NCBI RefSeq assembly: GCF_004346925.1
Contig: NZ_CP031167.1
Location: 2,376,001 to 2,440,000 of the forward strand
Length of the DNA stretch: 64,000 bases
Reading direction: 5' to 3'
From: Stenotrophomonas sp. ASS1
GTDB taxonomy: Bacteria; Pseudomonadota; Gammaproteobacteria; Xanthomonadales; Xanthomonadaceae
Shown: piece after piece, positions 22,791 to 27,632 of the stretch
How the letters are laid out: every line of letters begins with the position of its first letter
How positions within the stretch are numbered: the first letter of the stretch is position 1
The notes under the pieces: generated by a model
What the model was told of the DNA's origin: nothing
Database searches by the model: none
The model's input: only the letters and a program-made list of their open reading frames with translations
Translations under genes and position numbers: made by a program

Positions 22791-23093
22791 ATGACCGAGG
22801 TCCGCTATCTTCCCGTCGCCCTCACCCTTTGCGCGGGCCTGCTGCTCGGTGCGTGCTCCAAGGCCCAGGAAGCCAGCAAGGCCACCGCGGCCGAGGACGT
22901 AACCGAAGTGAAGCTGATTCCGTCCTATGAGTCGCTGGACAAGGACAAGGACGGCATCGTCACCTTGGCCGAAGTGGATGCCGTGGCACCCGACTGGGCC
23001 GAGCGCCTGCACGCCTGTGATACCGATCGCGACAAGACGCTCACATCCGGCGAATATGACGTCTGCAAGCAGACCACGCCGGCCGCCCATTGA
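22791..23093 (+). CDS. EF-hand lipoprotein
   Basis: A 100-residue lipoprotein with lipobox LLGAC (C22). Two canonical 12-residue EF-hand loops follow: D50-x-D52-x-D54-G...E61 and D77-x-D79-x-D81...E88, all expected Ca2+ ligands present. The intervening CD(T) and C92 may form a disulphide. It is anchored to a membrane facing the periplasm and probably binds Ca2+, perhaps Mg2+. It stands just upstream of a magnesium-transport locus, which may be more than chance. Confidence 0.8.
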   Translation: MTEVRYLPVALTLCAGLLLGACSKAQEASKATAAEDVTEVKLIPSYESLDKDKDGIVTLAEVDAVAPDWAERLHACDTDRDKTLTSGEYDVCKQTTPAAH

Positions 23094-23120: not shown

Positions 23121-23140
23121 GGCTATACCAAGGTATAGCC
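23121..23140. promoter_or_regulatory. Perfect 9-bp-arm palindrome
   Basis: GGCTATACC and GGTATAGCC separated by AA. It has the same CC-AA-GG centre as SMAG halves but no GTAG end. It may terminate the EF-hand gene or act as an operator of the magnesium locus. Confidence 0.4.
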
Positions 23141-23242
23141 GGGCTAACCCACGAGCCTCTAGGACTACCCCATTCAGGGGCGGACAATAGCGCCACTGGC
23201 CAGGGCAATCCTGGCTGGCTCCCTCCCCTCATGGAGACGCAG

Positions 23243-23332
23243 ATGGACCCCGACCCTGCCGGGCGCACCGCGCCCCGTATGCCCGCCTGTTGCCTGTTCC
23301 TGGCGCCTGCCCGCCGGTCCCTGCCTGCCTGA
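23243..23332 (+). CDS. MgtL-like leader peptide
   Basis: A 29-codon reading frame with GGAG 6 bases before its ATG, beginning MDPDPAG and rich in proline throughout. The known mgtA leader peptides MgtL start MDPEP (Salmonella) or MEPDP (E. coli); such acidic/proline starts destabilise ribosomes at low Mg2+. Lying upstream of mgtA in a genus far from the enterics, it looks like an independent or ancient counterpart. The stop is 5 bases before a hairpin that covers the next ribosome-binding site. Translation has not been shown; inference from sequence and position. Confidence 0.6.
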   Translation: MDPDPAGRTAPRMPACCLFLAPARRSLPA

Positions 23333-23337
23333 GTGAC

Positions 23338-23376
23338 GGGGGATCGCCAGGTGCCGTCTGCCTGGAGATCGCCCCC
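23338..23376 (+). promoter_or_regulatory. Leader hairpin covering the next ribosome-binding site
   Basis: GGGGG (23338-23342), ATC and CCAGG (23347-23351) pair with CCTGG (23361-23365), GAT and CCCCC (23372-23376), with one bulge, one mismatch and a 9-base loop. The GGAG at 23364-23367 used by the gene starting at 23377 lies in the right arm. A ribosome at the end of the leader peptide would open or prevent this stem, coupling downstream translation to leader translation. Confidence 0.5.
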
Positions 23377-23676
23377 ATGTCCTACAAGATCCTCTACATC
23401 ACCCTGCGCCGCCTGATTGGTGAGCGCGATGTTGCCGCGCTGCGCAGCCAGCTGCTGCAGCACGGCCCGGTCATGTTCGCCCGTTCGCTGTCGCTCGGCT
23501 CGCCACGCGTGGTGGCCGACGCGCTGTCGCTGCTGCCGATCAGCGAGCGCATCAATGTGCTGCGCCACCTGCCCTACCCGCTGCGCGATGCGATGAAGCC
23601 GCTGTGCATCGGTGGCAGCCAGCGCCTGCACATGCAGCTGTGGTCACCGGCGGTGCTGGCAATGCGCCACGCCTGA
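23377..23676 (+). CDS. Small protein resembling an MgtE N-terminal domain
   Basis: A 99-residue soluble protein, start ATG 9 bases after GGAG. The repeat-like helical pattern RSQLLQHGPVMFARSL, PRVVADALSLLPISER and INVLRHLPYPLRDAM recalls the superhelical MgtE N-domain, which gates magnesium channels in response to Mg2+. No channel domain is attached. It lies between the leader peptide and mgtA, 62 bp before the latter, and is probably co-transcribed. Resemblance is judged by eye only; it may instead be an unrelated helical protein. Confidence 0.6.
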   Translation: MSYKILYITLRRLIGERDVAALRSQLLQHGPVMFARSLSLGSPRVVADALSLLPISERINVLRHLPYPLRDAMKPLCIGGSQRLHMQLWSPAVLAMRHA

Positions 23677-23738: not shown

Positions 23739-26498
23739 ATGAGCCTGCTCAACGCCTGGTTCAATGCATTCCTGCGCAGCCGTCGCGCAGGCAACCTGTT
23801 CGGTCGTCGCGCCATGCCCGAAGCCGGCTTCGGCCCGGGCAGCGCCGAGGCCGCACCGTTCGCACTCACCACCGGCCTGGTCACCCTGTCGCAGTTGGAC
23901 GAGCCGCGCCTGCTGGCCGCGCTCGACTCGCACGTCGATGGCCTCAGCCCGCACGAAGCCGAGGAGCGGCTGGCCACGCTCGGCCCCAACGAGGTGGATC
24001 ACGAAAAGCCGCTGCCGTGGTGGCGGCACCTGTGGCAGTGCTACCGCAACCCGTTCAACCTGCTGCTGACCGTTCTGGCGGCGGTGTCCTGGCTGACCGA
24101 GGACATCAAGGCCACGATCGTGATCGGCGCGATGGTGCTGCTGTCCACGCTGATCCGCTTCGTGCAGGAAGGCCGCTCCAACCGTGCCGCCGAGCGGCTG
24201 AAGGCACTGGTCGGCAACACCGCGCGCGTGCTGCGCCGCAATCCGGGTACCGAGGCCGCTGATGTGGCCGACCAGTACTTCGGTGCGCACCTGCACAGCC
24301 GTCGCCCGGCACGGCTGCTGGACCTGCCGATCCGCGAGCTGGTGCCCGGCGACCACATCGTGCTGTCGGCCGGCGACATGATTCCGGCCGATTGCCGCGT
24401 ACTGACCGCCAAGGACCTGTTCGTCGCCCAGGCCGCGATGACCGGCGAATCGCTGCCAGTGGAAAAGTTCGCGCACCCGGGCGACGGCCTGGCCGGCCTG
24501 CTGGAACAGCACAACCTGCTGTTCATGGGCACCAATGTGGTGTCCGGAACGGCCACCGCCGTGGTGCTGGCCACCGGCAACCGCACCTACTTCGGCACGT
24601 TGGCCCAGCGCAGCACCGCCACCGACCGTGCGCCGACCGCATTCCAGGCCGGCGTCAACAGTGTCAGCTGGCTGCTGATCCGCTTCGCGCTGGTGATGGT
24701 GCCGTTCGTGCTGCTGATCAACGGCTGGACCAAGGGTGACTGGACCGAGGCGTTTCTGTTCGCGCTGTCGGTGGCGGTGGGCCTGACGCCGGAGATGCTG
24801 CCGATGATCGTCACCTCCACCCTGGCCAAGGGTGCGGTGCTGCTGTCGCGGCGCAAGGTGATCGTCAAGCGCCTGGATGCGATCCAGAACTTCGGTGCGA
24901 TGGAAGTGCTGTGCACCGACAAGACCGGCACCCTCACCCAGGACAAGATCGCGCTGGAACGGCACACCGACGTGTTCGGTCACGATTCGGAGGATGTGCT
25001 GAAGTTTGCCTACCTCAACAGCCATTTCCAGACCGGCCTGATCAACCTGCTGGACCGCGCGGTGCTGGAACACGTGGAGCTGCAGAGCTCGCTGCGGCTG
25101 TCGCAGGACTACCACAAGGTGGACGAGATTCCGTTCGACTTCGAGCGCCGCCGCATGTCGGTGGTGGTGTCCGAGCGCGAGGACCACCACGAGCTGATCT
25201 GCAAGGGCGCGGTGGAAGAAATGCTGGCGGTATGCAGTACCGTTCGCGAGAACGGCCAGGACATGCCACTGGACGAGCACCGCCTGGCCCGCGTGCGGCA
25301 GACCACCGAGGAACTGAACGAACAGGGCCTGCGCGTGGTGGCGGTGGCGATGAAGGAGACCGCTGCCAGCCAGACCACCTATTCGCAGGCCGACGAATGT
25401 GGTCTGACCCTGGTTGGCTACGTGGCCTTCCTGGACCCGCCGAAGGAGTCCGCTGCGCAGGCGCTGCAGGCGCTGGCCGCGCATGGCGTGGAGGTCAAGG
25501 TCTTCACCGGTGACAACGAACTGGTGACCGCCCGCGTCTGCGCCCAGGTGGGGCTGGAGGCCGACACCATCCTGACCGGCCCGCAGATCGAGCGCATGGA
25601 TGACGGCGCGTTGTCGCGCGCATTGCACCACCATCGTGTGTTCGCTCGATTGACGCCACTGCACAAGGAGCGCCTGGTGCGCGAGCTGCGTGCGCAGGGC
25701 AAGGTGGTCGGTTTCCTCGGCGATGGCATCAACGATGCACCGGCGCTGCGTGCGGCGGACATCGGCATCAGCGTGGACAGCGCGGTGGACATCGCCAAGG
25801 AGGCCGCCGACATCATCCTGCTGGAAAAGAACCTGATGGTGCTGGAGGAAGGTGTCATCCAGGGCCGGCGCACGTTCAACAACATGCTGAAGTACATCCG
25901 CATGACCGCCAGCTCCAACTTCGGCAACGTGTTCTCGGTGCTGGTGGCCTCGGCCTTCCTGCCATTCCTGCCGATGCTGCCACTGCAGCTGCTGGTGCAG
26001 AACCTGCTGTACGACATCTCGCAGATCGCCATTCCGTTCGACAACGTGGACGAGGAGCTGGTGCGCAAGCCGCTGAAGTGGAACCCGGCAGACATTGGGC
26101 GCTTCATGGTGTTCTTCGGACCGATCAGCTCGATCTTCGACCTGAGCTGCTTCGCGCTGATGTGGTACGTGTTCGATGCGCGCACACCGGCCGACCAGGG
26201 CCTGTTCCAGTCCGGCTGGTTCGTGGTGGGCCTGCTGACCCAGACGCTCATCGTGCACATGATCCGTACGCCGAAGGTGCCGTTCCTGCAGAGCATCGCC
26301 GCGCCGCCGCTGCTGGTGATGACCGGCCTGATCATGGCCATCGGCGTGGCCCTGCCGATGAGCCCGCTGGCTGGCTACTTCAAGCTGCAGGCCCTGCCGA
26401 CCGGCTACTGGCCGTTCCTGGTGGCGATCCTGTTCGGCTACGCGGTGCTGACCACCGTGCTGAAGAAGATCTACATCCGTCGTTACGGCTGGCAGTAA
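23739..26498 (+). CDS. mgtA: Magnesium-translocating P-type ATPase
   Basis: A 919-residue P3B-type ATPase that imports Mg2+ into the cytoplasm. Actuator motif TGES at residues 235-238, phosphorylation site D394 in DKTGTLT, hinge GDGINDAP starting at 661. The M4 segment VGLTPEMLPMIVTSTLAKGA is specific to MgtA/MgtB. N-terminal helices around 95-135, six C-terminal helices from about 730. Ribosome-binding site AAGGAG 5 bases before the ATG. It is followed 31 bp later by mgtC. Confidence 0.95.
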   Translation: MSLLNAWFNAFLRSRRAGNLFGRRAMPEAGFGPGSAEAAPFALTTGLVTLSQLDEPRLLAALDSHVDGLSPHEAEERLATLGPNEVDHEKPLPWWRHLWQCYRNPFNLLLTVLAAVSWLTEDIKATIVIGAMVLLSTLIRFVQEGRSNRAAERLKALVGNTARVLRRNPGTEAADVADQYFGAHLHSRRPARLLDLPIRELVPGDHIVLSAGDMIPADCRVLTAKDLFVAQAAMTGESLPVEKFAHPGDGLAGLLEQHNLLFMGTNVVSGTATAVVLATGNRTYFGTLAQRSTATDRAPTAFQAGVNSVSWLLIRFALVMVPFVLLINGWTKGDWTEAFLFALSVAVGLTPEMLPMIVTSTLAKGAVLLSRRKVIVKRLDAIQNFGAMEVLCTDKTGTLTQDKIALERHTDVFGHDSEDVLKFAYLNSHFQTGLINLLDRAVLEHVELQSSLRLSQDYHKVDEIPFDFERRRMSVVVSEREDHHELICKGAVEEMLAVCSTVRENGQDMPLDEHRLARVRQTTEELNEQGLRVVAVAMKETAASQTTYSQADECGLTLVGYVAFLDPPKESAAQALQALAAHGVEVKVFTGDNELVTARVCAQVGLEADTILTGPQIERMDDGALSRALHHHRVFARLTPLHKERLVRELRAQGKVVGFLGDGINDAPALRAADIGISVDSAVDIAKEAADIILLEKNLMVLEEGVIQGRRTFNNMLKYIRMTASSNFGNVFSVLVASAFLPFLPMLPLQLLVQNLLYDISQIAIPFDNVDEELVRKPLKWNPADIGRFMVFFGPISSIFDLSCFALMWYVFDARTPADQGLFQSGWFVVGLLTQTLIVHMIRTPKVPFLQSIAAPPLLVMTGLIMAIGVALPMSPLAGYFKLQALPTGYWPFLVAILFGYAVLTTVLKKIYIRRYGWQ

Positions 26499-26529: not shown

Positions 26530-27267
26530 ATGGACATCAATCCGAACCTGCCGGCGTTCAACGCCGGCGCAACCCTGAGCTCGCTGATCAGCCTGTCGGT
26601 GGCGTTCGTGCTTGGCACGGCCATCGGCCTGGAACGGCAGCTGCGCCAACGCACCGCCGGCCTGCGTACCAATACGCTGGTGGCAGTGGGTGCGGCGGTG
26701 TTCGTCGACCTGGCCGTGCGCTTCCATGACCTGTATGGCGGCCCGCCCTCACCGCTGCATGTGGTGGCCTATGTGATCTCCGGTGTCGGCTTCCTCGGCG
26801 CCGGCGCGATCATGAAGGACGGCGCACAGGTGTCTGGCCTCAATACCGCCGCCACCCTGTGGGGCTCGGCGGCGGTGGGTGCCTGTGCGGGTATCAAGCT
26901 GCTGCCAGAGGCGGTGCTGGCGGCGGTGTTCGTGCTGGCCGCCAATACCCTGCTGCGGCCGGTAGTGAACCGCATCCAGCGGCAGCCGTTGCCGGAGGCG
27001 TTCAGCGAGGCGACCTATGCGATCAACGTGGTCTGCCAGCGCGAGCAGCAGGCCGAGGTGCTGGACCAGCTGTTGCTGCTGCTGGAGCAGGCGCACTACC
27101 CGGTGCGCGCGGTGGACCAGCGCCCGTTCGGCGAGCGCGACGTGGAGATCGAAGCGGTGCTGTATGCCACCACGGTGGATGCCGGTGAACTGGATGCGGT
27201 GCTGGCCACGCTGGCGACCACCCCCGGCGTGCTGCAGGGGTTCTGGAACGCCAGCCTGGAGGAGTAG
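26530..27267 (+). CDS. mgtC: MgtC/SapB-family protein
   Basis: A 245-residue inner-membrane protein with N-terminal helices (about residues 15-145) carrying GTAIGLERQLRQRTAGLRTNTLVAVGAA and GVGFLGAGAIMKDG, the MgtC signatures. The C-terminal cytoplasmic domain of about 90 residues has the ACT-like fold seen in longer MgtC proteins. In Salmonella and others MgtC supports growth at low Mg2+ and inhibits F-ATPase. Its stop TAG lies in the GTAG end of the following repeat. Confidence 0.93.
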   Translation: MDINPNLPAFNAGATLSSLISLSVAFVLGTAIGLERQLRQRTAGLRTNTLVAVGAAVFVDLAVRFHDLYGGPPSPLHVVAYVISGVGFLGAGAIMKDGAQVSGLNTAATLWGSAAVGACAGIKLLPEAVLAAVFVLAANTLLRPVVNRIQRQPLPEAFSEATYAINVVCQREQQAEVLDQLLLLLEQAHYPVRAVDQRPFGERDVEIEAVLYATTVDAGELDAVLATLATTPGVLQGFWNASLEE

Positions 27268-27632
27268 TGCCGGCCGCTGGCCGGCAACATCGTGCACCGC
27301 TTGGTAGGTGCCGACCTTGGTCGGCACAGAACCCTCAGATGCCATGACTCCTGCCAGAGCCTGCCGACCAAGGTCGGCATCTACCAACAGCCCTCATGCA
27401 CCGCTTGGTAGGTGCCGACCTTGGTCGGCACAGACCCATCAGATGCCATGACTCCTGCCAGAGCCTGCCGACCAAGGTCGGCATCTACCAACAGCCCTCA
27501 TGCACCGCTCTGGTAGGTGCCGACCTTGGTCGGCACAATCCTGCAGCTGCCGGCCAGCGGCCGGCACTACCAGGCATCGCTTTGGTGGGTGCCGACCGCA
27601 CAGGAGCACGCCAAGCACGGTCGGCACCTGCC
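27264..27632. repeat. Tandem SMAG repeat cluster
   Basis: This stretch of about 410 bp holds no gene. After a GTAGTGCCGGCC palindrome, a unit of about 104 bp starting at 27301 repeats at 27405 and in part at 27510. Each unit has GGTAGGTGCCGACC-TT-GGTCGGCAC and its inverse GCCGACC-AA-GGTCGGCATCTACC. The end is a diverged pair with GCCGACCG and CGGTCGGC. Confidence 0.9.

Follow-up and report, generated by a model that had tools for sequence, protein, structure and literature searches.

Ahead of mgtA in Stenotrophomonas sp. ASS1 lies a short leader frame that probably acts as a translation-abort switch responsive to Mg2+, controlling by means of two mutually exclusive hairpins the translation of the gene that opens a Mg2+-transport operon. 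That the switch answers to Mg2+ is something we infer; the frame, its conserved start and the two pairings come from the sequence of the locus and of its relatives.

The leader and its surroundings

The stretch we analysed, the window, is 64,000 nucleotides long and covers positions 2376001-2440000 of a 4.56-Mb single-contig genome. The order within it, on the forward strand, is leader ORF, hairpin, a small gene of 99 amino acids (23377-23676) predicted to encode a stand-alone MgtE N-domain-like protein, mgtA for a Mg2+-translocating P-type ATPase (23739-26498; TIGR01524, 1334 bits), followed by a gene of the MgtC family (26530-27267; PF02308, E 4.3e-35). Past a gap 3' of the latter come a histidine kinase and a response regulator-like frame; the interval before the kinase, 27270-27560, holds a repeated short palindrome-like sequence of the GGTGCCGACC type that resembles REP elements. 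On the other side, directly 5' of the leader, 22791-23093 is a frame for a small lipoprotein-like product that contains an EF-hand-like loop, DKDKDGIVTLAE, and matches EF-hand and lanmodulin models weakly.

The leader ORF, MDPDPAGRTAPRMPACCLFLAPARRSLPA, runs for 29 codons on the forward strand (23243-23332) from its ATG at 23243 to a TGA at 23330-23332, with GGAG at 23233-23236, seven bases ahead of the start, as its Shine-Dalgarno (SD) sequence. A first-pass annotation of this DNA had singled out just such a 29-codon MDPDP frame with its own GGAG, and we find it as described: a short SD-bearing ORF of the MgtL type, with an M-D/E-P-D/E-P start upstream of mgtA, the small gene intervening before the transporter. 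A second in-frame ATG at 23231, which would give METQMDPDP, has no SD, and relatives such as L010 lack it, which leaves 23243 as the conserved start. Chance does not account for MDPDP. The corresponding DNA pattern, RTGGAYCCNGAYCC, has this site as its single occurrence in the 4.56 Mb of the genome, and the 450 nt upstream of 38 mgtA loci of other lineages yielded no SD-preceded short frame with three or more D/E/P among residues 2-6. Immediately 3' of the MDPDP codons, at 23261-23275 on the same strand, is a small hairpin, GGGCGC-ACC-GCGCCC, which belongs to the RNAalifold consensus of both the Stenotrophomonas and the Pseudoxanthomonas sets and may have a role in the leader.

Transcription of the leader could begin from a candidate promoter at 23159-23188 (forward strand), made up of CTAGG (23159-23163) and GACAAT (23183-23188) and common to Stenotrophomonas; its Pseudoxanthomonas counterpart reads CCTAGG...GGATAAT. 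A scan with the sigma-70 consensus did not detect it. Sitting 5' of this candidate promoter is a 16-bp palindrome, CTATACC-AA-GGTATAG (23123-23138), which has a 7-2-7 layout, is kept in Stenotrophomonas 5' of the leader and is a candidate activator site; the histidine kinase and response regulator 3' of the operon might be what binds there. The genome contains its core, TATACCNANGTATA, at two sites, of which the other (C1:4250981, L209) has a TonB-receptor-like and a HAD-type frame nearby, and a similar palindrome core is present in Comamonas L050.

How far the leader extends among bacteria was addressed in two ways. For the first we gathered 80 distinct leader loci from Xanthomonadaceae and Burkholderiaceae, using a DNA pattern in which Pro3 and Pro5 were fixed and residue 2 was limited to Asp or Asn. 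Within that limit codon 2 is GAC or GAT at 78 loci and AAC at 2; residue 4, which the pattern left freer, is Asp at 77 of the 80, and variation in codons 2-5 falls mainly at third bases. The other was a separate survey of 80 mgtA loci drawn from named genomes, where an MDPDP frame lies upstream of mgtA at every Stenotrophomonas and Pseudoxanthomonas locus, and also in Comamonadaceae such as Delftia and Comamonas and in Serratia, Klebsiella, Raoultella and Enterobacter. Searching whole genomes for the small gene added more Stenotrophomonas, a Xanthomonadaceae genus (g7) and a Burkholderiaceae-type family. The first-pass annotation had proposed looking for the MDPDP start in relatives, and it is kept in Stenotrophomonas, Pseudoxanthomonas, genus g7 and Burkholderiaceae. 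The leader is not recognisable at four Burkholderiaceae small-gene loci (L121, L122, L126 and L127), and several other products of the small-gene searches (L026/L112, L116, L117 and L128-L131) look like chance or unrelated matches. A Stenotrophomonas-type mgtA locus also turned up on a contig labelled Bacillus subtilis (L039; MgtA identity 88%), a record that is probably mislabelled or contaminated.

Beyond its start the peptide is far less constrained. Leaders range from 16 to 57 codons, and their C-terminal halves drift and even frameshift: L004 and L006 each have a single-base deletion of their own that alters the end of the peptide and moves the stop to the next TGA (in the overlap TGAGTGA), with the RNA pairing unaffected. 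Judged from these alignments, selection acts on the start of the peptide and on the RNA, not on the peptide C-terminus. The start itself is lengthened to MDPDPDP in L184 and L185 and reads MDPVPPPPP in L124. One acidic residue has been lost in L046 and L050 (MDPGP and MDPAP), which retain the sequestor and the small gene, and L015 and L174 begin MNPDP; these four are natural variants bearing on the requirement for acidic residues.

Two hairpins that share an arm

The sequestor hairpin spans 23338-23375 on the forward strand. Its left arm is 23338-23352 and its right arm holds GGAG 23364-23367, the SD of the small gene, 9 nt ahead of the ATG at 23377. That the leader ends 5 bases before a hairpin, and that the right arm of this hairpin contains the ribosome-binding site of the next gene, had been seen in the first pass and is borne out by these coordinates. 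The hairpin has a predicted stability of -26.6 kcal/mol (z -2.8 against dinucleotide shuffles, 1 of 200 being equally good). The same annotation had suggested stem covariation as a check, and across 33 Stenotrophomonas sequences the arms pair in 91.1% of cells, as against 41-57% for slid controls. At 23349:23363, 10 of the 33 have G-C in place of A-U, a compensatory change, and these 10 double-change cells exceed all 500 shuffles. Hairpins over the SD are seen again in several genera, in sequences unrelated to one another. Sequestration of the next gene's SD by a hairpin, as in Salmonella mgtQ, is thus found here. Folded as a whole, the leader region 23180-23420 is on a par with its shuffles (z -0.06), so the case rests on the local hairpin and on the comparative evidence. 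An Rfam scan of the whole window, Mg2+ riboswitch families included, gave no match at gathering score.

The competing structure was overlooked in the first pass. On the forward strand, 23301-23322, within the leader ORF, can pair with 23339-23356, a segment that takes in the greater part of the sequestor's left arm and so is shared between the two hairpins. It is this anti-sequestor, not the sequestor, that RNAalifold returns as the consensus for the 32 group A sequences. Its arms pair in 93.2% of cells (42-54% when slid), with double changes in three pairs, and its covariation against 500 shuffles is modest (double-change cells 4/500, pairs 197/500, score 42/500), a control that is only partly convincing.

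A further test used transcripts cut ahead of the SD arm, in which we compared occupancy of the left arm with that in dinucleotide shuffles. Pairing of the left arm with upstream sequence exceeds the shuffle mean in all 21 representatives, on average 0.82 against 0.58. Individually, nine of the 21 reach p <0.05, the window's own sequence has p 0.06, and two rhizophila-like loci, L041 and L184, are not significant; the combined Fisher p of 8e-12 is overstated because several of the 21 are related. This test supersedes a duplex test with mononucleotide shuffles, in which the mean effect was weak (mean z -0.7). Outside Stenotrophomonas the sequences differ, yet the truncated transcripts fold alike, with the 3' end of the leader paired to the left arm of the sequestor. 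In most lineages the anti-sequestor includes the leader stop codon; in the g7 type E leader (L014) the 5' arm begins directly after the stop. From these comparisons both hairpins are evidently maintained in Stenotrophomonas, and the leader 3' end and the sequestor left arm would form a mutually exclusive anti-sequestor, which is new here.

A model for the switch and its rivals

We propose that at high Mg2+ ribosomes would translate the full leader and run over the anti-sequestor, leaving the left arm free to pair with the SD. The sequestor would then form, the small gene would go untranslated and the operon would be off, with the untranslated message probably ended by Rho before mgtA, or mgtA translation dropping through lost coupling. 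At low Mg2+ the ribosome would be destabilised on the Asp-Pro-Asp-Pro codons and drop off early; the free 3' end of the leader would capture the left arm during transcription, the SD would stay open and the operon would be on. The anti-sequestor matters because without it leader translation does not obviously switch the hairpin in the right direction. Since mgtA has its own SD, around which structure is not unusual, its control needs translational coupling or Rho polarity. The first-pass annotation had suggested that Stenotrophomonas shares the principle of the enterobacterial leaders and may gate the small gene at 23377-23676; the conserved MDPDP start and the hairpin support both at the level of sequence.

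Equilibrium folding sets a limit on how such a switch could work. In a partition-function test with ribosome-masked regions the SD is predicted to be mostly paired in every state, its mean accessibility being 0.23 in free RNA and 0.22 when a ribosome masks the end of the leader. This equality rules out a simple equilibrium switch. A competing hairpin overlapping the upstream ORF, as in mgtQ, is present here as a conserved pairing, with no effect on the SD at equilibrium, and the switch either acts co-transcriptionally, through kinetic trapping, or does not act as proposed. Also against the model, a ribosome at the stop codon would cover the base of the sequestor.

That last point can be turned around. 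With the stop only 5 nt from the hairpin, a terminating ribosome overlaps its base, so completion of the leader at high Mg2+ might melt the hairpin and let the small gene be translated by coupling; drop-off at low Mg2+ would then silence the small gene while mgtA is read from the SD it possesses, and the small protein would be a high-Mg2+ brake on the transporter. Such a brake is plausible, the N domain being a Mg2+-sensing domain in MgtE. We think this reversal unlikely, for it leaves the conserved anti-sequestor in the leader 3' end unexplained, and in genus g7 the leader stop and the SD gene are 65-68 nt apart, a distance over which a terminating ribosome could not itself melt the SD hairpin. 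Distinctly improbable, in our estimation, is Rho-dependent attenuation of transcription with the SD hairpin incidental. Enterobacterial MgtL does use a Rho-dependent terminator (PMC11282234), and a scan for intrinsic terminators found none at this locus; against this, the SD hairpin is conserved, shows a compensatory change and turns up in several genera on sequences that are unrelated. Rho may act downstream of the translational step. Least probable of all is that the leader senses proline supply, through charged tRNA-Pro or EF-P, rather than Mg2+. There are proline codons in the leader, a run of them in L124, and in Salmonella the leaders of both mgtA and mgtC are proline-responsive (PMC3641672). 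Yet the conserved start has just two prolines, which are not consecutive, and proline sensing would not require the Asp seen at residue 4 and, within the Asp/Asn choice of the search pattern, at residue 2.

The small protein, its partners and known Mg2+ leaders

The protein whose translation the leader would gate belongs to a family with the motif ADALSLLP..RI.VLRHL. AlphaFold2 gives it a confident five-helix fold over residues 1-78 (mean pLDDT 85), and the closest solved folds in Foldseek are cytosolic N-domains of MgtE (2oux, 8gpv), with probability 0.99-1.0, TM 0.57-0.62 over the query and E-values >0.4; the FliG middle domain, which is related to the MgtE N-domain, is also among the closest. 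Profiles are less generous: the Pfam MgtE_N model (PF03448) matches 3 of 12 family members, the best at E 6.6e-5, with the window's own protein not among them, and the profile match to MgtE in the PDB is weak (E 0.012). On its predicted fold the small protein thus resembles the N domain of the Mg2+ channel MgtE (e.g. 2oux, 2yvy) rather than being a proven member of the family, and it differs in standing alone, without CBS or membrane domains.

What follows the small gene varies. The next recognised gene is mgtA at 59 of the 80 leader loci, mgtC at 16 and mgtE at 1, or 76 in all, with Pfam confirming MgtE at L120 and MgtC at L113, L115 and L124; at the other four no mgtA, mgtC or mgtE was recognised in the stretch examined. 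At these four a metal-efflux RND system of the CzcB/CusA type follows or appears to follow: an adaptor and a CusA/CzcA-family pump at L109, a larger stretch that takes in L017 (the pump scoring 930 bits for TIGR00914, above the cut-off of 701), an adaptor 3' of the leader and small gene at L187, and two close relatives of these loci, L020 and L186. The first-pass annotation was right to place the leader before mgtA and to see a small gene gated there, and missed the same pair ahead of mgtC, mgtE and metal-efflux genes. It is conceivable, and we offer it tentatively, that leader and MgtE_N-like gene form a portable Mg2+-sensing cassette placed ahead of at least three unrelated Mg2+ systems and a CusA/CzcA-type RND pump, gating translation by ribosome drop-off and supplying a soluble Mg2+-sensing subunit to the downstream transporter.

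Destabilisation of the ribosome by a nascent peptide serves as a Mg2+ sensor in Salmonella and E. coli. In E. coli MgtL an acidic, proline-containing start (EPDP) leads to ribosome drop-off, and leader translation keeps the Rho site accessible (PMC11282234). Our leader shares with MgtL of E. coli and Salmonella a short ORF with an Asp/Pro start upstream of mgtA and, by prediction, ribosome destabilisation at low Mg2+; the Klebsiella, Serratia and Enterobacter copies found in this analysis likewise start MDPDP. It differs in the MgtE_N-like gene between leader and transporter and in the hairpin over that gene's SD, and the C-termini, lengths and RNA folds of the leaders here are unrelated to those of MgtL. 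In Salmonella mgtQ, translation is cut short at acidic codons and the mgtB SD is released by alternative hairpins (PMC8092293), and by analogy the leader described here would likewise abort at early acidic codons and use alternative hairpins to mask or release the next SD. The contrast is that mgtQ is an intergenic ORF of 8 codons between mgtC and mgtB, translated to break its 1:2 hairpin, whereas here the leader is first in the operon, is 16-57 codons long and carries the anti-sequestor within its own 3' end. The mgtP and mgtM leaders of mgtCBR also choose between hairpins by their translation, one of which hides the mgtC SD, but mgtP senses proline and its full translation activates (PMC3641672), where full translation here is predicted to repress. 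A literature search, mostly without subscription papers, found none combining mgtL with Stenotrophomonas or an mgtA leader peptide with Xanthomonas.

We therefore see in this locus what appears to be the working of MgtL joined to that of mgtQ, with the lineages, the gated gene and the leader-borne anti-sequestor as the new elements. An Asp-Pro start under coding selection, in two families and ahead of three unrelated families of Mg2+ transporter, suggests either a general sensing principle or its repeated invention. The operons bring in an unstudied small MgtE_N-like protein, and the Mg2+-sensing principle known from Salmonella and E. coli seems to have a much wider distribution.
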